10,594 nucleotides of DNA from Weeksellaceae bacterium (lineage in GTDB: Bacteria > Bacteroidota > Bacteroidia > Flavobacteriales > Weeksellaceae): contig JAKOOI010000255.1 of the NCBI GenBank assembly GCA_022701475.1, positions 1-10,594 on the forward strand, read 5' to 3'. The notes under the pieces are model-generated. The model saw only the letters and a program-made list of their open reading frames with translations, was not told where the DNA came from and searched no databases. Position numbers and translations under genes: made by a program. Below, in pieces: positions 1 to 10,202 of the stretch (positions are counted from its first letter, which is position 1; the number at the start of each line of letters is the position of its first letter).

Positions 1-554
1 CCGAGCTCGCGAAATTTGTTGTAGAGGAAAATTTCAGTCATCACTGTGAGGAGACGGTTACGTCCGTACAACTTCAGAACGATATAAAAGAAATATGCAC
101 TGAAGAATCGGGCTATTTTAAAAACTCAGAAATTTTCGTTGTAAAAGATCCTTTAGGAAGTATCCAGGGTTCCATACGGGTGCTGAAATGGGATTATAAG
201 GCAACACTTCCGATACAGAAGTTATTTAATATCAATCCTCTGGATGTTACCTATACGCAAAGGGTATCCTCCATATGGCATATCGGCAGGTTTGCAACGA
301 ATAAGAATAATCAGGACCGTACGCTGTTTAGAAAACTGATGATCTGCGCCATTGCGCCCATCTGTAAGTCTGAAAATAGCGTAGCCTTCGCGGAATGTGA
401 CAGCAAGCTCCTGCGGGTAATGAATCTTATGGGGATCAAAACGGATATCATAGGCAAACCTATCCAGTATATGGGTTCTGAAACGATTCCGGTATCAATG
501 AACTATGAAGGGTTAAAGGGCTTTTATGATGCCAACAGGTATCTGGTCATGTAA
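1..554 (+). CDS. GNAT-fold N-acyltransferase, acyl-homoserine-lactone / N-acyl amino acid synthase-like (5' truncated)
   Basis: The reading frame is open from the first full codon at base 3 through to the TAA at 552-554, giving 183 visible residues. The gene therefore starts outside the window, and the internal GTG at 180 is not a credible start. Visible features, numbered from base 3, are GSIRV (56-60), WHIGRFA (92-98), a helix rich in K/R/L (106-120), AFAECDSKLLRVMNLMG (128-144) and a C-terminal IGKPIQYMGSETIPV stretch (150-164). This order fits the GNAT-like acyltransferases related to LuxI-type and FeeM-type synthases, which move an acyl chain from acyl-ACP or acyl-CoA to an amine. No membrane segment is seen, so it is probably cytosolic. 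It lies 42 bp upstream of the regulator gene and two genes before an NHLP peptide gene. In known selidamide RiPPs, GNAT maturases acylate the peptide, so a maturation role is possible. The family call is by motif only; substrate and acyl donor are unknown. Confidence 0.6.
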   Translation, partial: ELAKFVVEENFSHHCEETVTSVQLQNDIKEICTEESGYFKNSEIFVVKDPLGSIQGSIRVLKWDYKATLPIQKLFNINPLDVTYTQRVSSIWHIGRFATNKNNQDRTLFRKLMICAIAPICKSENSVAFAECDSKLLRVMNLMGIKTDIIGKPIQYMGSETIPVSMNYEGLKGFYDANRYLVM

Positions 555-596
555 ATACATTTTCCACAAAAAAAAACAAATCAATCAGATAGCAAG

Positions 597-1247
597 ATGA
601 GTATAGCAAGAAGTTTAGACTGGAATTCTCCGGATATTCTGGAACAGATCATCCAGAATATCAAGAATCCCCTGGAGCATATTATTACGGTAAGCAAAAG
701 CACCGCATACCACCATAAAGAAAAGAAGGATGAGATCATCTTTTCCTGCAGTAAGGAAATAAGTGACATTATAGAAGAAATCATGCTTAAAACACAGGCG
801 AAAACACTGAATTTAACTTTCAGGAGCCGTCCTGAAATTTTTGATATCTATGATGCCAATGAAAATGTACGGGATCTGTGCTCTGAAAAGATTGTTCCCG
901 GCAAGATTACAAAAATAGATCAGGACTGGCTCATCAACCTGGAGAAGGAGATTTACAGTTCCTTTATCCAGAATGAACTGAGCCTGTATGAGCTTTCGTA
1001 TAAAATGGCGGTAAGCGAAAGACAGCTGCACCGGAAAATAGCCGCTCTGGTCTATCTTACCCCTAATAAATATGTCCGGGTACTGAGACTGCATAAGGCA
1101 AAAGAAATGATAGACAATTATGTGCAGAGATCCATTTCCCAGATCGCTTATGCCGTGGGATATAATGATGTGCATTACTTTTCAAGGCTGTTCGCAGATC
1201 AGTATAATATTACCCCAAAAGAACTGATCAGTTCCCTGAAATACTAG
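597..1247 (+). CDS. AraC-family transcriptional regulator with a degenerate HisKA-like N-terminus
   Basis: This 216-residue protein ends in a clear AraC-type double helix-turn-helix (about residues 115-213). The first HTH contains LSLYELSYKMAVSERQLHRKI (about 128-148), and the second contains ISQIAYAVGYNDVHYFSRLF (180-199) followed by the typical ITPKEL. The form closely resembles the DNA-binding end of Bacteroidota hybrid two-component regulators. Residues 12-70 look like the two helices of a histidine-kinase dimerisation domain: QNIKNPL (20-26) aligns with the usual HELRTPL box, but Gln20 replaces the phospho-acceptor His. No ATPase or receiver domain is present. The ATG at 597 is the first in-frame start after the upstream stop and lies 42 bp from it. 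The next gene starts 16 bp after its stop, so it is probably cotranscribed and a likely local regulator of the peptide/export genes. The HTH call is strong; the HisKA relation is inferred from pattern. Confidence 0.85.
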   Translation: MSIARSLDWNSPDILEQIIQNIKNPLEHIITVSKSTAYHHKEKKDEIIFSCSKEISDIIEEIMLKTQAKTLNLTFRSRPEIFDIYDANENVRDLCSEKIVPGKITKIDQDWLINLEKEIYSSFIQNELSLYELSYKMAVSERQLHRKIAALVYLTPNKYVRVLRLHKAKEMIDNYVQRSISQIAYAVGYNDVHYFSRLFADQYNITPKELISSLKY

Positions 1248-1263
1248 AGACCTACTACAACAT

Positions 1264-1617
1264 ATGAACTTAACAGAAGAACAGAAAAAAGGACAGGAAG
1301 TTTTTTTCAGGATCATTTCCCGCGCCTGGAAAGATGAAGACTTTAAAAGAGCCCTGCTTGAAGATCCCGGCCGGACACTGGAAGCATTTTTCGGAAGAAA
1401 ACTTCCTGCCGGCAAGAGGATAATCATAACAGACCAGTCAGACCCGGACTGTCTGTACATCAACATTCCCGTAAAGCCGGGAATCCGGAACCTGAAGACC
1501 GCCCGCCCATCCGGGAAAGTTTCTGAAAACGAAAAAGCAGACCAGGGAATGACCGATTTTAAAACCCTGTATAATTCCCTGCAGCAGATCAAAGAACCGG
1601 ATGAACGTCAGGAATAG
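1264..1617 (+). CDS. NHLP (nitrile hydratase-like leader peptide) family protein, candidate RiPP precursor
   Basis: This 117-residue protein has the hallmark NHLP leader: a helical N-terminus, then RAWKDEDFKRALLEDPGRTLE (20-40), FFGRKLPAG (42-50), a beta strand RIIITDQ (52-58) and LYINIPV (64-70). This is the minimised nitrile hydratase alpha-subunit fold used as a leader in proteusin-type and other RiPPs, recognised by maturases and by NHLM transporters. The following 47 residues (71-117) are polar and charged, with several Lys and Arg. They contain no GG, GA or GS cleavage motif, no Cys, and no run of small or hydroxyl residues typical of a RiPP core. The only Cys (63) is in the leader. The frame shows no sign of a frameshift: the two alternative frames over the tail close quickly and show no core. 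It may be an atypical precursor, a precursor with an eroded core, or a leader-only accessory protein. The ATG at 1264 lies 16 bp after the regulator stop. Confidence 0.85.
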   Translation: MNLTEEQKKGQEVFFRIISRAWKDEDFKRALLEDPGRTLEAFFGRKLPAGKRIIITDQSDPDCLYINIPVKPGIRNLKTARPSGKVSENEKADQGMTDFKTLYNSLQQIKEPDERQE

Positions 1618-1684: not shown

Positions 1685-2206
1685 ATGAAAAGAGTACTTT
1701 TTTTCTTGGGCCAATTGAATGACAGAGATGTGGAATGGATGATCCATAACGGAAGCAAATTAGACCTGCCGGTAGACTATAAACTGATCTGCAAAGGAGA
1801 GGCTGTTGATAGTTTATTTATCGTCCTGTCCGGCCAGTTATCCGTATACGGGGACAACAGCTGTACAGAAAGCATTGCCCGCCTGGAATCCGGAGAGATT
1901 GTAGGGGAAATGTCCTTTTTGGAATCCAGGCCTCCGTCAGTTTCCGTGGTTGTAACCAAACCCTCGGTTGTATATCATATTTCACGGGATACCATCAGCA
2001 AGAGAATGGCCGCCAACCCGGAGTTCAGATCAAATTTTTATTATGCCCTGGCTCTGTTCCTGTCAAACCGGTTAAGGAAAACAACCGATCAGTTGGGATA
2101 TGGAAACCCTGAGGAGGAAGATATGATTGATACCCACGTCATGGACGGAATTGCACAGGCCGGTTCCCGCTTCGGACAAATATTGCACCGGTTTTCGGAA
2201 GTTTAA
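1685..2206 (+). CDS. Stand-alone cyclic nucleotide-binding-like (Crp-type beta-roll) protein
   Basis: This 173-residue protein is a CAP-family beta-roll without a DNA-binding domain. Visible features are KLICKGEAVDSLFIVLSGQLSVY (about 33-55), a glycine-rich turn, and a phosphate-binding-cassette-like segment GEIVGEMSFLESRPPSVSV (70-88), then a capping helix region (104-135). The cassette keeps Gly-Glu at 74-75, but the place of the Arg that normally contacts the cyclic phosphate (RPRSATV-like) is Pro84 (RPPSVSV), so cAMP or cGMP binding is doubtful. The C-terminal 35 residues form an acidic, probably flexible tail and not an HTH. Small proteins with this fold are known to accompany NHLM export clusters, though their role is unclear. 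It starts 67 bp after the NHLP stop, the largest gap in the cluster, and is followed 18 bp later by the TolC-type gene. A protein-protein or assembly role with the transporter is an inference. Confidence 0.8.
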   Translation: MKRVLFFLGQLNDRDVEWMIHNGSKLDLPVDYKLICKGEAVDSLFIVLSGQLSVYGDNSCTESIARLESGEIVGEMSFLESRPPSVSVVVTKPSVVYHISRDTISKRMAANPEFRSNFYYALALFLSNRLRKTTDQLGYGNPEEEDMIDTHVMDGIAQAGSRFGQILHRFSEV

Positions 2207-2224: not shown

Positions 2225-3799
2225 ATGAGATTATACAGGTTTATCTGCGTCATACTTATAAGCGGCAGCCTTACAGCTGTTTACGGGCAATCAGGAATAC
2301 GTTGTGACCTGGTGGAAATTTCGAATATCGCATTTGGGAAAAGCCCTGTCCTGATCAGAAGTAACTATCTGATCAAAGATGCGGAAGGGGATCTGCAGAT
2401 TCAGAGAAGTATATTTGATGTGAACCTGTTCTCCGAATTGGCTGTCACGCATAGTGACTATACCCTGTTTGATGAAGATCCCAGAAACCAATACATAGAC
2501 AGGATTCTGAAAGACAATATCCTGGACTTCTCAGGCGGCCTGCAGAAAAGGCTCCGGTCCGGGCAGATAGCAGAGGTAAGTCTGAAATACGGTTTTAATA
2601 ATAACAACTTTCCGTTTAACAGCTTTAACAGATATGTAGGCGCCTTTTGGGGAAATCACCTGGGAAGCGTAAATGCTTCTCTGACGCAGCCTCTTCTCAG
2701 GGGCAGAGGCAGGGAAATTACCACCAGCTCCGAAAGAGCTTCGCGGCTTTATGTAGAGAATGCCCGGAATAATAATGAATTTACCAACTCCTATACCATC
2801 CTGCAGATTGCTCAGGCATACTGGAACTATTGTCTGGCCTATAAAAGCCTGGCTATTTATAAGGAAAATGAAAGCAGGGTACGCAATGTTTCTGAAGTAA
2901 CCAGAGAACTGATAAAGGCGGATAAAAAGCCTGCAGGAGACTTTGCTCAGGTGAATGCAGACCTCGCCAACCAGGAAAAGCTTACTGCTGTGGCAGAACA
3001 GAATCTGTACGAAGCAAGGATTAATCTGGGAAAAGTAATCGGATTGAGTAATGAAGAGAGCCTGAGACTGGATTTCCCGGCAAACGATTTTCCCGGTATT
3101 GCAGAATCCCGTTACAGAACAGATCTCAACAGAAATGCACTGATAAAAACGGCTATAGAAAGAAGGAGCGACCTCAGGGCTGCTGAACGGATTTCCGAAG
3201 CATTGGAAATACAGTATCAGCTTGCAGAAAATAACATGAAACCACAGCTGGATCTCACAGGCTTTGTCTTCTACGGAAGCGCTATCGCAGGAAATGGTAT
3301 TGATAAGGCTTTTTCATCCTTTACCAATAACAACGGAAGGAATCTGGGAGCCGGTGCCAAACTGACTTTTACTTTCCCGGCTAACAACAATTTAGCCAAA
3401 GGAAATTTCATAAAAAGTACAGTGGCCCTGAATGACCGTAAAGTAGCCAATGACAACCTACAGCGGACCATAGAACTCAATATCAGCAATATCATCAATA
3501 GGCTGGATAATAGTGTGGTCATTCTGCAGAAAGCGAAGGAAGCGCTGGATTCCTACAGGGATGCATTCAACAGCGAGCAGGTAAAGCTGCAGGCAGGGCT
3601 TACCACCATACTGAACGTGATCTTATTTCAGGAAAGGCTTACTGCTGCAGAACTTGAATATTTACAGGCTTATCAGCAGTTTGCCAATGCAATTATTAAT
3701 CTGAGGCATGAAACAGGAACCCTGATCTCCCAGGAGAACAACGGCTTTATTTTAACCAGAGAAGTGTTTTATACCATCCCCGATACAACAAATTATTAA
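2225..3799 (+). CDS. TolC-family outer-membrane efflux/secretion channel
   Basis: This 524-residue protein has an N-terminal signal peptide (basic MRLYR, hydrophobic 6-19, probable cleavage near VYG/QSG at 21-22). It has the double-repeat plan of TolC-type outer-membrane factors. Repeat one has a beta-strand segment ending in SLTQPLLRGRGRE (152-164), then long helices (165-275) with QIAQAYWNYCLAY (194-206). Repeat two has PQLDLTGFVFYG (340-351) and LGAGAKLTFTFPANNNLAKG (374-393), then helices ending in KLQAGLTTILNVILFQERLTAAELEYL (454-480) and LRHETGTL (493-500). The length is normal for the Bacteroidota family. It should form the trimeric outer-membrane and periplasmic tunnel of a type I-like exporter, docking on the HlyD-type adaptor encoded 12 bp downstream. 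Its position at the head of the transport genes supports dedicated peptide export rather than drug efflux. Confidence 0.92.
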   Translation: MRLYRFICVILISGSLTAVYGQSGIRCDLVEISNIAFGKSPVLIRSNYLIKDAEGDLQIQRSIFDVNLFSELAVTHSDYTLFDEDPRNQYIDRILKDNILDFSGGLQKRLRSGQIAEVSLKYGFNNNNFPFNSFNRYVGAFWGNHLGSVNASLTQPLLRGRGREITTSSERASRLYVENARNNNEFTNSYTILQIAQAYWNYCLAYKSLAIYKENESRVRNVSEVTRELIKADKKPAGDFAQVNADLANQEKLTAVAEQNLYEARINLGKVIGLSNEESLRLDFPANDFPGIAESRYRTDLNRNALIKTAIERRSDLRAAERISEALEIQYQLAENNMKPQLDLTGFVFYGSAIAGNGIDKAFSSFTNNNGRNLGAGAKLTFTFPANNNLAKGNFIKSTVALNDRKVANDNLQRTIELNISNIINRLDNSVVILQKAKEALDSYRDAFNSEQVKLQAGLTTILNVILFQERLTAAELEYLQAYQQFANAIINLRHETGTLISQENNGFILTREVFYTIPDTTNY

Positions 3800-3813
3800 A
3801 TACAACAAATTAT
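3783..3813 (+). repeat. 14-bp direct repeat across the TolC/HlyD gene junction
   Basis: ATACAACAAATTAT occurs at 3783-3796 and again, identical, at 3800-3813, with a period of 17 bp. The first copy encodes the last TolC codons up to the stop; the second fills the 12-bp intergenic gap and ends inside the ATG of the next gene. This looks like a short slippage duplication that created the current spacing and A-rich start region of the adaptor gene. Confidence 0.8.
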
Positions 3814-5074
3814 GTCAGCAAGTTTTTTCAGAAAGTCAGCATTAGAAAAACTGTCTACCCCGGAAAAGTTGGATCAGTTAATAAAGGTAACAGGGCCTAA
3901 AGCATGGATCGCGCTTCTTACCGTTTTCATTGCATTGGGAACCGGGATCTGCTGGGCCGTAGCAGGAACAGTAAAAACCAAGCTGAATGCCATAGGGGTT
4001 GTGCTGGGCGGGGAACTGCACGAAGTAGTGGCTACCTCCCAGGGGCAGCTTGTCAGCCTGCATGTCTCTATCGGTGACCATGTGAAAAAAGGAGATGTGA
4101 TTGCCACCGTTCAGCAGCCTGAACTCTATCAGCAGATCGAGGATGCAAAGGCCGTCTTATCCGAAAGAAAGTTCGAAATGGGAAAGTTGATGGCTTATGG
4201 AAACCAGGGAAGCCATCTTGAAGGCCAGCTGATCAGCCAGAACCGGGTAAGCATCCAGGGGGAAATAGAGGCAGAGAAGAAAAAACTGGTATTCCTCTAT
4301 AACCAGCTGGAATCAGAAAATAACCTGCTGACCAAAGGACTTATTATAAAATCCCAGGTGGCCGGAACAAAGCAGGAGATAGACGCTTCAAAAAATACAA
4401 TTGAAAGGTTAAAGGCACAGATGGCGGAAACATCCAACCAGAAACATAATCTGGGTTTCGATCTCCAGCAGAAAATAACCTTGCAGAACCAGCGTATTGC
4501 AGAGGCAGAAAGAAATCTCCAGTTCTTATCAGAGCGGTATGAGACCCAGAACAGGATTAAAAGCCCATACGGTGGAGAAGTTGTAGAAGTGCTTACTGAC
4601 GCGGGCGGCGTGGTAGCAGCAGGCACACCGCTGTTCAAATTGAAAAATAACGGGGGAAGCAGCCTCGCCGTACTGAAAGGCGTACTTTACATCCCTTCCC
4701 AGGATGGGAAAAAAATCAGGAAAGGAATGGAAGCCTTTGTGGTACCATCTACTGTCCAGCCGCAGGAATTCGGATTCATGGAAGCAAAGGTTACTTATGT
4801 TTCAGATTTTCCCATTACGGAAAGAGGAATGATGACCTCCGTGAAAAATGATCAGCTGGCCAAAGGATTACTGGCTTCAGGGCCTTTGTTTGAGGTTCAT
4901 GTTGAATTTACAAAAGATCCCGCGTCATTCAGCGGCTATAAATGGACCTCCGCGAAAGGGCCGAACGTTTACATCAGGGAAGGGACTTCCTGTAACGGTA
5001 AAATTACCATCGATCAGGAGCCTCCCGCAACCATTGTAGTTCCTGCATTTAAAAAATTCTTTGATCTCTATTAA
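3812..5074 (+). CDS. HlyD-type periplasmic adaptor, NHLM/NHLP bacteriocin system secretion protein
   Basis: This 420-residue protein is a membrane-fusion (adaptor) subunit. The N-terminus carries the family-like LEKLSTPEKLDQLIKVTGPKAW (11-32), then one membrane segment (about 32-53, WIALLTVFIALGTGICWAV). A split lipoyl-like domain follows: GQLVSLHVSIGDHVKKGDVIATV (78-100) and, after the coiled coil, IKSPYGGEVVEVLTDAGGVVAAGTPLFKL (249-277). Residues 105-245 are a long helical hairpin rich in Q, E, K and L, and beta-barrel domains fill about 285-405. The protein should be anchored in the inner membrane and bridge the ABC transporters to the TolC-type channel. The ATG at 3812 comes 12 bp after the TolC stop and 14 bp separate its stop from the C39 transporter gene, which fits cotranscription and a dedicated complex. 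The assignment to the NHLM subtype rests on the N-terminal sequence and on the neighbours. Confidence 0.92.
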   Translation: MSASFFRKSALEKLSTPEKLDQLIKVTGPKAWIALLTVFIALGTGICWAVAGTVKTKLNAIGVVLGGELHEVVATSQGQLVSLHVSIGDHVKKGDVIATVQQPELYQQIEDAKAVLSERKFEMGKLMAYGNQGSHLEGQLISQNRVSIQGEIEAEKKKLVFLYNQLESENNLLTKGLIIKSQVAGTKQEIDASKNTIERLKAQMAETSNQKHNLGFDLQQKITLQNQRIAEAERNLQFLSERYETQNRIKSPYGGEVVEVLTDAGGVVAAGTPLFKLKNNGGSSLAVLKGVLYIPSQDGKKIRKGMEAFVVPSTVQPQEFGFMEAKVTYVSDFPITERGMMTSVKNDQLAKGLLASGPLFEVHVEFTKDPASFSGYKWTSAKGPNVYIREGTSCNGKITIDQEPPATIVVPAFKKFFDLY

Positions 5075-5088
5075 CAATAATCCGGAAG

Positions 5089-7278
5089 ATGGATAAGAAA
5101 AAAAAACTGCTCATAGCAAAACAGGCAAGACCCGTAAAGGTTCCCACCGTTCTTCAGATGGAAGGGGTTGAATGCGGCGCTGCGGCATTAAGTATTATTT
5201 TGGGATATTTCGGCAAATTCGTTCCCCTTGAAAAATTAAGAATTGCCTGTGGTGTTTCCAGAGACGGCCTGAAGGCTACCAATATCATAAAGGCGGCAAA
5301 GGAATATGGCCTTGAGGCAAAAGGATATGCAAAATCCCTGGAAAATTTAATGCAGCTGCAAACCCCTGCCATCCTGTTCTGGAATTTCAACCATTTTCTG
5401 GTTTTGGAAGGGTTTACAAAAAATAAAGTTTACCTGAGCGATCCAGCACAGGGACGGTACCAGGTTACCCATGAAGAATTTGACGATGCTTATACAGGGG
5501 TGGTCCTCACTTTCAGCTGTGGTAAGGATTTTGTCAGAGGAAATGAAAAAAGAGGCCTGATGTCTTCACTGGCTTCCAGGATATCCCATTCCAGGCTGAG
5601 TGTTGCCTATCTTATAATAGCCAGCCTTTTTCTTGTTATTCCGGGGTTGGTAATTCCTTCTTTCATTAAAATATTTATTGATAAATACCTGATCAACGGG
5701 TATGACGGATTTGTAATGCCGTTATTGCTGGTCATGACAGGCGTTCTGCTGATCAATGCCGCGCTGGTATATCTTCAGCAGTATTATCTCCTGAAATTAG
5801 AAACAAAACTGGCCTTGGCGGCATCCAGCAAATTCCTGTGGCATGTATTTCATTTACCGATCTCCTTTTTCACTCAGCGTTACAGCGGGGAAATAGGAAA
5901 CCGGGTGTCATTGAACGATAAAGTTGCCAAGCTCCTGAGCGGAGATCTTGCCAATGCCGCGCTCAATATTATTGTGGTGGTCTTTTATGCATTCCTTATG
6001 TTTTCCTATGATGTCCATCTTACCCTGATATGCATACTGATGGCAGGAATTAATATCATAGCATTACAATATGTTGCCAGAAAAAGAAAAGACGGTAACC
6101 GGAGGCTAAGCAATGAAAACGGCAAGCTGCTGGGAACCACCACATCCGGGATCAGTATGATAGAGACCCTGAAAGCTTCAGGCAGGGAAAATGATTTTTT
6201 CACCAATTGGATCGGCTATCTTGCAAAAGTAACGAATGCCCAGCAGGAATTGGGCTGGCTCACGATCAGGCTCAATGCAATCCCCCCATTGATCACTTCC
6301 CTTACCACTACGATTATTTTAGGGGTCGGAGCACTGAGAATCATGGACGGAGAAATGACCCTCGGTGCCCTGGTTGCCTTCACCTATCTTATGAGTAATT
6401 TCATATCCCCGGTTAATCAGCTGATTTCGGTAGGAAGTTTACTTCACGAAACGGAAAGCGATATGAACAGGATAGATGACGTTGTCAATTATGAAGTAGA
6501 CGATCAGTTTAAAGACAAAAAAGGTCAATCTGCAGCTGAAGAAGAAGTCAATAACAAGCTGGTAGGGTATTTTGAAATGCGTAATGTTACCTTTGGGTAC
6601 AATACAACAATGCCGGCCCTTATTGAAGGTTTCAGTTTAAAACTAAGGCCCGGCAGCAGGGTGGCTTTGGTAGGGGGTTCCGGAAGCGGAAAATCAACGG
6701 TTGCCAAGATTGCTTCGGGACTGTACCAACCATGGAAAGGCGAAGTTTTGCTGGATGGAACAGACAGAGAAGAGATTCCAAGGAATGTGATTACGGAATC
6801 ATTGGCAGTCATTGACCAGGATGTCCTTATATTCAACGGGACGGTAAGGGAAAATATTTCTTTCTGGGATGCTGCAATTTCTGAAAAAAGCATCATCCAG
6901 TCTGCCAGAGATGCTGCAATCCATGATGTGATTGCCGCCCGGAATGATGCTTATGAGAGCGCTGTTTCGGAAGGAGGCTCCAATTTTAGCGGCGGACAGC
7001 GGCAGCGCCTTGAAATTGCAAGGGCCCTCGCCACCGATCCTTCCATACTGGTCATGGATGAAGCCACCAGCGCACTGGATCCCAATGCAGAAAAGACAGT
7101 GATGGATAACATCAGGAAAAGAGGCTGCACCTGCCTGATCGTAGCCCACAGACTCAGTACTATTATCGATTGTGACGAAATTATCGTCATGGAATACGGA
7201 AAAATAATAGAAAGAGGAACCCACCACGAATTAATACAAAAGAACGGAGCCTACTCCAGATTAATTGAAACAAAATAA
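5089..7278 (+). CDS. NHLM-type peptidase C39 / ABC permease / ATPase (leader-cleaving exporter, ABC1)
   Basis: This 729-residue protein has the three-part bacteriocin exporter plan. The N-terminal C39 peptidase (about 17-142) has the oxyanion Gln23 and catalytic Cys29 in LQMEGVECG, His102 in NFNHFLVLEG and Asp118 in LSDPAQG, so it looks active. Six membrane helices follow within about 170-445. The ATPase (about 495-729) has A-loop Tyr504, Walker A GGSGSGKST (529-537), Q-loop Gln577, signature FSGGQ (633-637), Walker B ILVMDE (653-658) and H-loop His687, all canonical. C39 exporters cut their peptide substrate after a double-glycine-type site in the cytosol and pump the product out. Together with the adaptor and TolC-type channel it should carry the peptide across both membranes. 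Its 14-bp and 11-bp spacing to its neighbours marks it as part of the same operon. No double-glycine substrate is visible in the window. Confidence 0.95.
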   Translation: MDKKKKLLIAKQARPVKVPTVLQMEGVECGAAALSIILGYFGKFVPLEKLRIACGVSRDGLKATNIIKAAKEYGLEAKGYAKSLENLMQLQTPAILFWNFNHFLVLEGFTKNKVYLSDPAQGRYQVTHEEFDDAYTGVVLTFSCGKDFVRGNEKRGLMSSLASRISHSRLSVAYLIIASLFLVIPGLVIPSFIKIFIDKYLINGYDGFVMPLLLVMTGVLLINAALVYLQQYYLLKLETKLALAASSKFLWHVFHLPISFFTQRYSGEIGNRVSLNDKVAKLLSGDLANAALNIIVVVFYAFLMFSYDVHLTLICILMAGINIIALQYVARKRKDGNRRLSNENGKLLGTTTSGISMIETLKASGRENDFFTNWIGYLAKVTNAQQELGWLTIRLNAIPPLITSLTTTIILGVGALRIMDGEMTLGALVAFTYLMSNFISPVNQLISVGSLLHETESDMNRIDDVVNYEVDDQFKDKKGQSAAEEEVNNKLVGYFEMRNVTFGYNTTMPALIEGFSLKLRPGSRVALVGGSGSGKSTVAKIASGLYQPWKGEVLLDGTDREEIPRNVITESLAVIDQDVLIFNGTVRENISFWDAAISEKSIIQSARDAAIHDVIAARNDAYESAVSEGGSNFSGGQRQRLEIARALATDPSILVMDEATSALDPNAEKTVMDNIRKRGCTCLIVAHRLSTIIDCDEIIVMEYGKIIERGTHHELIQKNGAYSRLIETK

Positions 7279-7289
7279 ATCAGAATCCT

Positions 7290-10202
7290 ATGCCTGTACG
7301 AGAAAAGATATGCATCAATGTTGAAAATCCTTTTATCCTGAATGAGACCGGCAGGCTATGGATGGTGCTTTCCGGAGAAGTTAACCTGTTTTTTACCCAA
7401 ATCGGCGACGATGGCAGCTACCTGGTTCCGCTGAAACACCTCTATACGGTACGGAAAGGGGAAATTGTATTCAGCTTTCTCACGGAAAACAATACCGGAA
7501 GCAATATCAGGCTTATCGCTTTTTCAAATAACGCAAAGCTGTTACCGGTTAATAAGGACAGCCTCCTGGATATGGATCATTTCTTCCTGAAGAATATGAT
7601 CAGTCAATGGATCTCCAGTACGGCTGCCGTACTTTGTACTGCTAACAGCCCCAGAGTATATAAAGCGCTGGATCATTACAGAGTGGTATCGCTGGAAAAA
7701 GACAGTCTTGCTTTTCCTTCCGGCGGAATCAGCTGGGTACATATTCTGAAAGGAGAAGCATCAGTATATGCGGAAAGCACGGATATCAGCCAGGATAAGC
7801 TGCCCGGTTTCCTTGTGCCTGTGTCTAACAAATTATGGATAAAGTCATTAAGTGATGATACCGAACTGAAGGTCATCAGTACAAGGGAAGTGCTTCAGGA
7901 CGATATCTATTTTCTGCTGTCACTGGCAAAACTTGAAGAATATTTTCACCGGAGGCTTGCGGTTGCCATAGATACCCGGAAATCGGAAGAGATCAGGCAT
8001 TTTCAGGAAAAGAGGATAGCAGAAGAACAAAACATACAGAGCACATTACAGAAAATCAGATCCCTGGTAGCCGGTAACGATGATAGAAAGGGGCCGGGAA
8101 TACCGTGGACACCGGATAAAAAGAATATACTCTTTTCCACCTGCCGTTTGATCGGGGAGCAGTCAGGATTCAGGATAGATGAACCCAGACATATTGAATC
8201 TTATGAAAACAGCATTACAAATCAGTTGTATGCCATCGCAAAAAGCTCAAAGATACGGATCCGGAAAATCATCCTGAGAGGAACCTGGTGGAAGGAGGAA
8301 AACGGACATCTGCTGGCCTTTGCAAAAAACGATAAAACGCCGGTTGCTTTATTACAGTCGACTTCTGCAAAGTATATCCTGAAAGATCTTTCTACGGGCA
8401 AGGAAACCACCGTTAATAATGAAATCGCTGAAACACTGGAACCTATCGGATACATGTTCTTTTCAGGATTCGACGGGAAAATGACTTCCGTAAAAAAAGT
8501 GGCGGGTTTCGCTTTAAAAGGGGTGAAAAAAGATGCTAAGATACTGATGGCAGCAGCTTTGGCGGGCAGCCTCATAGGATTGCTGGTTCCTGTACTGTCA
8601 GGCATAATGTATGATGATGTTATTCCTGCAGCAGACCGTTCCCTTCATAAAGAGATTTTTATCATCATGGTTATGATCGGCGTTATCACGGCAGGCCTGC
8701 AGCTCGTGAAAGGCGTTTTGCAGCAAAGGGTAGAGGCAAAGTCCAGCATCAGCCTGCAGGCAGGTGTAATGGATCATATGTTACGCTTACCGGTTACGTT
8801 CTACAAAAAATTCAGTGCCGGGGATCTCACGAACAGGGTGTTGAGTATAAATATGATACGCCAGATCGTTTCCAATACACTGATGACGGCGGTGCTGAGC
8901 GGAGCTTTTTCTTCCGTAAATCTCATATTGCTGTTTTATTACAATTCTGAACTGGCCTGGATCGGGATCGGGTTAGCACTGATTGCCATGCTTTTTATGG
9001 TAGTCATCGGGCTCTTAAAGCTGAAATATGACCGTGAAGTATCCAAACACCAGGGTGAAATTCAGGGGTTTCTGTTTGAATTCCTTTCCGGGATTTCCAA
9101 AATACGGATAACCGGCGGGGAACGGCGGGTGTTTACCCTCTGGGCAGATAAGTTTTCCAGGCTTAAAAAACTGGGATTTGCTTCGGGAAGCTACCAGAAT
9201 TTCGTGGAAACTTTCAATGCCTCTTACCCTCTCGTCACAAGCATCTTCTTCTTTGCATTCCTGTATTATACTGTCCTTAATTCGGATGTCAGGACCGTGA
9301 TGCTTACGGTAGGTGCATTTATGGCTTTCATTATTGCATTCAACCAGTTTCTGAATGACAGCCTGAGGCTGAGCATGGCCATCATCACTTCACTCAATGT
9401 CATTACCCTGTATGAAAGGGTAAAACCGATCCTGGAAGAAGAAACGGAATCTGTGGAACAGAGTGTGGATCCCGGAGAACTTGCAGGGGATATTGAGATG
9501 AATTCCGTTTCTTTCAGGTATCACAAAGATCAGCCATTGGTACTTAATGATGTAACATTTAAAATCAAATCAGGGGAAATGGTTGCATTTGTAGGCGCTT
9601 CCGGATCAGGGAAATCCACCATTATGAGGCTGTTGCTGGGGTTTGAATATCCCGAACTGGGTTCAATTTATTTTGACAGCGATTCCTTTGAATCAATGAA
9701 TAAAGAATTGGTCCGGAGACAGATAGGGGTGGTGTTGCAGAACGGATCACTGATGTCAGGAAGTATTTATCAGAACATCGTAGGCAATTCTGAACTGACG
9801 CTGGATGATGCATGGGAGGCGGCCCGGATGGCAGGAATGGAGCAGGATATCAGGCAGATGCCTATGGAAATGCATACCGTGGTAAGTGAAGGGGCCGGAA
9901 CGTTCTCAGGAGGACAGAAGCAAAGGCTCATGATTGCAAGGGCCATCGTTCACAAACCGAGGCTGCTGTTCATGGACGAAGCCACCAGCGCCCTGGATAA
10001 CAGAACCCAGAACATCGTCTCGGAAAGCCTGGACAAACTCCAGGCTACCCGGATCATTATTGCTCACAGATTAAGTACAATAAAAAATGCAGACCGTATC
10101 TATGTTATGGATAAGGGAACTATCGTAGAAACAGGAACCTATGATGAACTGATGGAAATGAACGGCCTGTTTGCCCAGCTGGCAAAAAGACAGATTGCAT
10201 AA
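7290..10202 (+). CDS. NHLM-type ABC permease/ATPase with N-terminal beta-roll region (ABC2)
   Basis: This 970-residue protein is the second transporter subunit typical of NHLM clusters. It has no C39 peptidase. Residues about 10-100 (RLWMVLSGEVNLFF, VRKGEIVFSF) and about 128-200 (WVHILKGEASVY) look like two degenerate cyclic-nucleotide-binding-like beta-rolls. A mostly helical and mixed linker domain (about 205-405) of unknown fold follows. Six membrane helices lie within about 416-695. The ATPase (about 733-970) is complete: A-loop Tyr744, Walker A GASGSGKST (769-777), Q-loop Gln817, signature FSGGQ (872-876), Walker B LLFMDE (892-897), H-loop His926. Both ABC proteins therefore seem catalytically competent. 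In NHLM systems the two are found together, and pairing as a heterodimer is the usual assumption, though each could also form a homodimer. The ATG at 7290 is 11 bp after the stop of the C39 transporter. This is the last gene of the apparent operon. Confidence 0.93.
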   Translation: MPVREKICINVENPFILNETGRLWMVLSGEVNLFFTQIGDDGSYLVPLKHLYTVRKGEIVFSFLTENNTGSNIRLIAFSNNAKLLPVNKDSLLDMDHFFLKNMISQWISSTAAVLCTANSPRVYKALDHYRVVSLEKDSLAFPSGGISWVHILKGEASVYAESTDISQDKLPGFLVPVSNKLWIKSLSDDTELKVISTREVLQDDIYFLLSLAKLEEYFHRRLAVAIDTRKSEEIRHFQEKRIAEEQNIQSTLQKIRSLVAGNDDRKGPGIPWTPDKKNILFSTCRLIGEQSGFRIDEPRHIESYENSITNQLYAIAKSSKIRIRKIILRGTWWKEENGHLLAFAKNDKTPVALLQSTSAKYILKDLSTGKETTVNNEIAETLEPIGYMFFSGFDGKMTSVKKVAGFALKGVKKDAKILMAAALAGSLIGLLVPVLSGIMYDDVIPAADRSLHKEIFIIMVMIGVITAGLQLVKGVLQQRVEAKSSISLQAGVMDHMLRLPVTFYKKFSAGDLTNRVLSINMIRQIVSNTLMTAVLSGAFSSVNLILLFYYNSELAWIGIGLALIAMLFMVVIGLLKLKYDREVSKHQGEIQGFLFEFLSGISKIRITGGERRVFTLWADKFSRLKKLGFASGSYQNFVETFNASYPLVTSIFFFAFLYYTVLNSDVRTVMLTVGAFMAFIIAFNQFLNDSLRLSMAIITSLNVITLYERVKPILEEETESVEQSVDPGELAGDIEMNSVSFRYHKDQPLVLNDVTFKIKSGEMVAFVGASGSGKSTIMRLLLGFEYPELGSIYFDSDSFESMNKELVRRQIGVVLQNGSLMSGSIYQNIVGNSELTLDDAWEAARMAGMEQDIRQMPMEMHTVVSEGAGTFSGGQKQRLMIARAIVHKPRLLFMDEATSALDNRTQNIVSESLDKLQATRIIIAHRLSTIKNADRIYVMDKGTIVETGTYDELMEMNGLFAQLAKRQIA

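Follow-up and report, generated by a model that had tools for sequence, protein, structure and literature searches.

The subject of this study is the first gene (positions 3 to 554, plus strand) of a 10,594-nucleotide contig from a Weeksellaceae bacterium (assembly GCA_022701475.1, contig JAKOOI010000255.1), hereafter the window, which encodes a LuxI/FeeM-like acyltransferase of the GNAT fold and stands ahead of a peptide export operon. From a comparison of its relatives and their neighbourhoods we propose, with a probability of about 0.72, that this GNAT protein carries out the acyl transfer in an autoinduction cassette of three genes, whose other members would be an E1/ThiF-like enzyme and a divergently transcribed LuxR-type regulator. 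Because the acyltransferase-E1-LuxR cassette, together with a box of its own, heads many unrelated natural-product clusters in Bacteroidota, the enzyme is more likely to produce a signal between cells than to attach a lipid to the peptide. A sequence-only reading of the window had suggested the latter, namely that the enzyme fatty-acylates a nearby NHLP leader protein in the manner of the selidamides, a group of ribosomally synthesized and post-translationally modified peptides (RiPPs).

Genome contigs were scanned once with an alignment of the GNAT family, which gave 108 confirmed stretches, and the best 80 of them (L-numbered loci) were used for the counts below, which include close relatives. 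A LuxR-type gene accompanies the GNAT gene in 79 of the 80 loci, always on the opposite strand, and is upstream and divergent in 78; the spacer between the two exceeds 600 bp in L012, L028, L049 and L061. A ThiF/E1-like gene is found in 68 loci, tail-to-tail with the LuxR-type gene at less than 300 bp in 60 of these and 6-8 kb off in the remaining eight, and in two genomes of the window's genus with NHLP-type clusters (G030 and G362) it lies about 11 kb from the GNAT gene, beyond the export operon. The module occurs in Chryseobacterium, Flavobacterium, Tenacibaculum, Kordia, Aquimarina and Zobellia and in one Parabacteroides record. It is also held by L046, a contig filed under a Candidatus Zambryskibacteria metagenome-assembled genome and probably misbinned.

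The divergent arrangement is accompanied by a common regulatory signal. With L026 (no LuxR), L070 (other gene order) and L012, L028 and L049 (long spacers) left out, 75 LuxR/GNAT spacers were available, and the 59 non-redundant ones served as input to a palindromic motif search, which returned aaACTACaCttaaGtGTAGTtt with a log-likelihood of 708 at width 22, against 34 and 40 for two shuffles. The box reads ACTACAC-N4-GTGTAGT, an inverted repeat of 18 bp, and its centre lies 53-118 bp upstream of the GNAT start. Its core, at no more than 3 mismatches of 14, is present in 75 of 75 spacers, a count which is not independent of the motif since 59 of these spacers defined it; shuffled sequences gave 8 of 1180 and the reversed control 0 of 75. 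The upstream regions of E1, payload and orphan LuxR genes and six GNAT loci outside the 80 contributed nothing to the motif. In those six (L094, L095, L096, L103, L105 and L111), whose GNATs are 52-95% identical to the nearest among the 80, every spacer has the box; it is also found upstream of 28 of the 68 E1 genes (control 0) and of 3 of 852 other genes (control 2). Around the expected payload promoter, from -80 to +250 bp of the GNAT stop, it occurs in 43 of 79 loci (control 2), where the interval had been widened to 80 bp after boxes were seen overlapping the GNAT end, the count from 15 bp before the stop being 19 of 79.

The boxes also tend to be paired, since pairs lying exactly 38 bp apart (at most 4 mismatches in each box) number 40 in GNAT promoters and 32 behind GNAT. 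In L029, L031-L034, L041, L068 and L069 the payload pair runs into the 3' end of the GNAT coding sequence, and operator DNA therefore codes for part of the GNAT C-terminus. A single box is meaningless at the genome-wide level, as in the window's own genome the reversed pattern gives 101 sites at no more than 3 mismatches, against 23, and only position, pairing and context give such sites meaning. By sequence, the cassette has a palindromic box before both the candidate synthase gene and candidate target genes, as a LuxR-type receptor would be expected to have.

The distribution of these elements was then compared over a phylum sample of 395 genomes and a close-kin sample of 59. GNAT is present in 12 of the former (weakly in G284) and in six of the latter, the window's genome included. 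Tandem pairs 38 bp apart, counted genome-wide at no more than 2 mismatches of 20, occur in nine of the 395 genomes, all among the 12 with GNAT and none among the 383 others (reversed control 2); seven of the nine represent loci already in the 80 that fed the motif, so that this shows specificity and is not an independent finding, and the chance figure of 4e-16 for the overlap ignores locus reuse and relatedness. The pair stands at the GNAT locus in eight of these genomes, and in the window's own it stands before an orphan LuxR gene on another contig (C391). The sensor domain of the LuxR-type protein was found in 24 of the 395 genomes, comprising all 12 with GNAT, seven stronger matches without GNAT and five weak ones. 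In those seven genomes the orphan LuxR gene has a box upstream in 7 of 7 cases, at about 16-340 bp (in one case overlapping the longest reading of the gene start), and no other site or pair of this kind occurs in the stretches that were read; the regulator is therefore tied to the box without help from GNAT. The specific E1 (E-value below 1e-70) is found in 13 of the 14 GNAT genomes tested, not in the window's own, and in none of 21 genomes without GNAT (best E-value 2e-19).

What follows the module differs widely from locus to locus. A script assigned the payload classes from gene-family rules; domains were verified on single representatives, and the nonribosomal peptide synthetase (NRPS) and polyketide synthase (PKS) genes were named by eye. 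An NHLP/NHLM payload is present in 17 of the 80 loci, and another 9 have GNAT and NHLP yet lack the full export set; LanB/LanC lanthipeptide genes follow in 13, an UpxY/NusG-type antiterminator with NRPS, PKS or other genes in 12, a JmjC-like gene (match below the cut-off) with a C39 exporter in 5, an island of F28/F20/F19/F21 with ABC genes in 6, a TonB receptor with other genes in 6, and other or cut payloads in 12. In one of the JmjC-like loci, L027, three tiny genes with double-glycine (GG) leaders lie at 11310-11859 between GNAT and the JmjC-like enzyme with its exporter, and possibly represent an uncharacterised RiPP type. Loci L041 and L068 have six compared upstream chromosomal genes in common at 60-98% identity, as well as E1 (82%), LuxR (92%) and GNAT (80%), and then continue with the F28 island and with a lanthipeptide cluster respectively, that is, with different payloads at one chromosomal site. 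A GNAT tree of 64 sequences, built by a quick method and weak at 24 of its 61 inner branches, requires 11 changes of payload class; the window's GNAT falls with most others of the NHLP type in one supported clade of 19, and L035, L046 and L058 form another NHLP-type group, apart from it. We read the clade as whole clusters inherited together. On the sequence evidence, the gene module, its common box and the exchange of payloads behind it can be regarded as established. Joint inheritance of this kind, the partial fidelity of payloads on the tree and the Hymenobacter loci L026 and L028, which have no E1 in the stretch, would also be in line with GNAT and E1 being unrelated metabolic genes caught by accident in a LuxR-controlled island. 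However, the module is kept from Chryseobacterium to Zobellia and in the Parabacteroides record behind different payloads, and accidental capture sits badly with the 38-bp box pairs, and we find this explanation hardly credible.

As to the partner proteins, the LuxR-type protein of L008 carries a GerE DNA-binding domain (PF00196, E-value 2e-18), and the E1 protein of L011 belongs to the E1/ThiF superfamily (PF00899, E-value 4.5e-32), although its gene is not one of those in the window. Three PDB entries, 9egb, 9egc and 9egd, are members of the cassette E1 family (E-value 3.5e-138), followed by TcdA (2.5e-16). In the distant locus L181 (6450-7926) a GNAT of 31% identity and an E1 of 44% remain adjacent without a LuxR gene, next to genes whose kin are response-regulator-like, and since the pair stays together even there, the sequences suggest that GNAT and E1 work together. 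The same adjacency, along with the biosynthetic or export genes behind the module in most loci, might be explained if the two enzymes made a shared tailoring or building block, either an acylated small molecule or an activated unit, joined to the products of many clusters or protecting from them, while LuxR answers something else. This we consider unlikely, as no common acceptor is evident across NHLP export, LanB/LanC, NRPS-like, JmjC-like plus C39 and TonB-receptor payloads, and the box of the regulator's own promoter region is common to GNAT and to part of the E1 genes.

The identity of the GNAT was approached by profile searches. The frame at 3-554 is open to the left contig edge and gives 183 aa; compared with the full-length version P0001 (200 aa, the family being about 200 aa in size), 17 residues are missing. 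A Pfam search with the window protein gave no match at an E-value of 1. TIGR03694, the PEP-CTERM-associated acyltransferase, matches it with an E-value of 9e-4 and matches 40 of 40 relatives (best 3e-8); for P0001, the only relative with bits given, the score is 21.8 bits, where the cut-off is 111.95. The FeeM profile PF21926 matches 31 of the 40 relatives (best E-value 2.5e-5), though neither the window GNAT nor P0001, and its scores of 14.3-18.0 bits in the eight relatives with bits given fall short of the gathering score of 27 and hence of FeeM membership. Autoind_synth (PF00765) matches only one of the 40, with an E-value of 0.024, which does not place the family among the LuxI-type synthases of N-acyl-homoserine lactones (AHLs). 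The LuxI catalytic core carries a conserved E-x-x-R; the GNAT lacks it and has H-x-x-R at that place, within an H-I/V-G-R-F-A motif found in the matched set, and at least 95% of the 80 GNATs keep H110 and R113. The window protein conserves this motif as HIGRFA, together with an AECDSKLL block. A P-loop pattern is present in 13 of the 80, at residues 139-154 among ten listed. PDB searches with the GNAT, by profile and by single sequence, gave no match; among named records, Chryseobacterium and Flavobacterium have the closest GNATs. Since TIGR03694 and FeeM are the best profile similarities and H-x-x-R occupies the place of the LuxI E-x-x-R, the enzyme likely uses an acyl donor, and the sequence-only reading had been right to place it near the acyl-donor GNATs, its closest profiles being the PEP-CTERM acyltransferase and FeeM.

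Put together, the proposed circuit would work as follows. The LuxR protein would bind the box; GNAT would join an acyl chain to an amine substrate, and E1 would adenylate a carboxylate on either the substrate or the product, perhaps for cyclising or coupling; the acylated product would diffuse and be detected by LuxR through its PAS-like N-terminal domain, and LuxR would then raise transcription of GNAT, E1 and payload. Since the window's payload follows GNAT immediately and with short gaps, a box upstream of GNAT could drive the whole NHLP/NHLM RiPP export operon. In a broader form, towards which we lean only slightly, this would be a LuxI/LuxR-like circuit of Bacteroidota's own, with a two-enzyme synthase (GNAT plus the E1-like enzyme), a PAS-type LuxR, and its own box often in 38-bp tandem, serving as an exchangeable switch before RiPP, lanthipeptide, NRPS and other clusters, into which orphan LuxR proteins may listen.

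A number of observations weigh against the autoinduction cassette. As to gene content, E1 is not in the stretch for 12 of the 80 loci, four of which have about 5 kb or less upstream, and L026, from Hymenobacter, has GNAT and AraC without LuxR or E1. As to the box, 40 of the 68 E1 upstreams are without one at the cut-off, pairs in GNAT promoters also occur at 28 bp (nine pairs) and 39 bp (five), and L180, from the weakest GNAT genome (G284), has LuxR and E1 adjacent and a frame of 133 aa that matches GNAT in part, with no box by its LuxR gene. The payload box is absent from NHLP-type loci, in 0 of 17 with the export operon and 0 of 9 without it, which fits an operon led by GNAT, this being the sole explanation offered. 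As to the proteins, Autoind_bind gave no match with the LuxR protein of L008 and does not figure in the list of families for 27 N-terminal domains, PAS_3 matches 5 of those 27, weakly (best E-value 0.0026), and the similarity of GNAT to LuxI and FeeM appears weak. The distances of GNAT, LuxR sensor and E1 correlate at 0.75-0.81 over 53 loci, with the species tree not controlled for; payload fidelity is partial, and the NHLP clade of GNATs may be a specialised one. Moreover, in the window's own genome the LuxR gene is on a separate contig, no specific E1 was found, and the GNAT promoter probably falls in an assembly gap. The signal chemistry, the enzyme activities and the binding of the box by LuxR are matters that we infer.

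The selidamide-like alternative, in which GNAT would put a fatty acid on a Lys of the window's NHLP protein or of the GG-bearing NHLP proteins on two other contigs of the same genome (C221 and C564), has to be weighed in more detail. It draws on the position of the GNAT gene, which does lie, as the sequence-only reading had it, two genes ahead of the NHLP gene on the same strand with short gaps, 42 bp from GNAT to AraC and 16 bp from AraC to NHLP. The order acyltransferase-regulator-NHLP-NHLM is also conserved in relatives, since GNAT-AraC-NHLP-cNMP-TolC-HlyD-ABC1-ABC2 (cNMP standing for the cyclic-nucleotide-binding protein) is kept in 16 of the 80 loci (L007-L018, L024, L028, L035, L042), with HlyD split over two frames in L012 and, by eye, a transposase-like insertion in L028; L058 has the window's gene order with NHLP missing. 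Furthermore, most NHLP-cluster GNATs fall in one supported clade, the kin of the enzyme are acyl-donor GNATs, and published GNATs of such kind, in the descriptions as excerpted, accompany NHLP or Nif11 leaders. The tie nevertheless weakens on a wider view: relatives of the window's NHLP occur in 25 of the 80 GNAT loci, with none within the fetched stretch of the other 55, and LuxR, mostly with E1, accompanies GNAT regardless of the payload. NHLM ABC1 exceeds its cut-off in 30 of the 395 genomes, 25 of them without GNAT and five with it (four adjoining), and 7 of the 12 GNAT genomes are without NHLM ABC1 over the cut-off.

The NHLP protein itself gives the selidamide-like alternative little room. 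With TIGR03793 it scores 46.6 bits (E-value 2e-12, model positions 3-64 of 77), just short of the curated cut-off of 50.9 and thus outside membership by that measure. Lysines are indeed present in its C-terminal part, at residues 78, 85, 91, 100 and 110, where acceptors had been imagined, but its sequence has no GG site past residue 60, so that no core, and hence no acceptor Lys or Orn within one, lies behind a protease site. In an alignment of 27 orthologue rows, two of which are the window's, GG is found in 10 (earlier in L012 than in the others), and 7 are orthologues of 65-86 aa with a small or missing core. These leader-keeping, core-poor proteins, from L020-L023, L025, L053 and L026, adjoin GNAT or GNAT-AraC. 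The selidamide enzyme NpuN is, by its published description, a tandem GNAT with a P-loop, compared with the P-loop pattern in 13 of 80 GNATs here, and the cassette GNAT is not of the tandem P-loop type. Acylation of the NHLP peptide by GNAT was accordingly not borne out, and we hold it to be very unlikely.

All eight genes of the window (contig C157 in our labels) are on the plus strand. Behind GNAT follow an AraC-type regulator (597..1247; PF12833, E-value 2e-17), whose family is found in 19 of the 80 loci and goes with the NHLP-type payload, and the NHLP leader protein (1264..1617), a member of the orthologue group following GNAT-AraC. A GNAT_acetyltran match of the AraC gene (E-value 0.015) is weak and was taken as chance. 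The export operon comprises a cyclic-nucleotide-binding protein (1685..2206; PF00027, E-value 3e-15, with a partial match to TIGR03896 below the cut-off), a TolC-type outer-membrane export protein (2225..3799; PF02321), an NHLM HlyD-type secretion protein (3812..5074; TIGR03794, 290.8 bits), NHLM ABC transporter 1 with a C39 double-Gly peptidase (5089..7278; TIGR03796, 1057 bits, and PF03412) and NHLM ABC transporter 2 (7290..10202; TIGR03797, 855 bits). HlyD, ABC1 and ABC2 each exceed their cut-offs, which identifies a complete NHLM export system.

The assembly to which the window belongs (G000) is 73% complete in 602 contigs, and the LuxR partner was found where contig C221 begins on its left side. 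Judging by L008, the contigs probably run C564, then C221 reversed, then C157, and the GNAT promoter and its box would therefore fall in a short unassembled gap; a search at the C221 edge and in the window saw no box. Contig C221 (L005) also carries, on the minus strand at 3783-5255 and 5416-6221, a lone LanM-type dehydratase (DUF4135, no cyclase domain) and two NHLP genes, both with GG sites and one with a Cys-containing core; the dehydratase family recurs in 13 of the 80 loci. The remark that no lanthionine synthetase is visible thus stands for the window, though not for the genome. Contig C564 (L006) holds an NHLP gene (5228-5560) next to a TPR protein with, by eye, a class III nucleotide-cyclase-like end (5659-7671), and L008 (544-2980) likewise has an NHLP gene and a TPR/cyclase-like protein, the cyclase-like family being present in 11 of the 80 loci. 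A cyclic-nucleotide link between this gene and the cyclic-nucleotide-binding protein of the export operon is possible. Near the right ends of L006 and L005 the coding sequence is alike (DRSR..HLKKGK..AVFTQKLAGLSG), and the assembly may have broken there at a repeat. The orphan LuxR gene on C391 (L101, 1307-2133) is of the same family as the cassette's, and its tandem pair of boxes, at the 38-bp spacing, lies immediately upstream.

With regard to significance, it has been reported that Bacteroidetes possess LuxR-type genes lacking a recognised synthase; in the excerpted text of that report, an unknown synthase family was left possible and 'cheaters' were also raised (PMC6000730); for Porphyromonas gingivalis the excerpted account gives little AHL and names a putative HdtS-like synthase without excluding others (PMC7300016). 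With its defined box and adjoining LuxR gene, the pair of GNAT and E1 is a concrete candidate for the missing Bacteroidetes synthase, and, if this is true, the signal or the box could become a handle for switching on silent natural-product clusters of Flavobacteriales. No title in the open-licence literature searched describes a GNAT-E1-LuxR module, which is weak evidence of absence.

Among known systems, LuxI/LuxR quorum sensing by AHLs offers the nearest plan, in which a GNAT-type acyltransferase adjoins a LuxR-type (GerE) regulator, orphan LuxR relatives occur, and a palindrome, the lux box, stands before the synthase and target genes, as the box does here. The cassette differs from it in having PF00765 in 1 of 40 GNATs only, H-x-x-R instead of E-x-x-R, a PAS-like sensor instead of an autoinducer-binding domain, and an additional E1-like enzyme; it looks, from its sequences, as if built to work like LuxI/LuxR, yet it fails membership in both families. 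With the FeeM and TIGR03694 acyltransferases the GNAT has its best profile similarities, below the cut-off wherever bits are given, and it differs from them in its pairing with LuxR and E1. TcdA, named in the PDB as tRNA threonylcarbamoyladenosine dehydratase, is the next-nearest PDB kin of the cassette E1. The selidamide GNATs NpuN and PhaN, in their descriptions as excerpted, resemble the cassette GNAT in being acyl-donor GNATs that neighbour a C39 exporter and leaders of the NHLP or Nif11 type. Going by its published description alone, NpuN has a tandem GNAT architecture and a P-loop, and its peptide carries a GG leader (PMC13060382), whereas the cassette GNAT is about 200 aa, extends beyond NHLP loci, and in the window is accompanied by an NHLP protein without GG.

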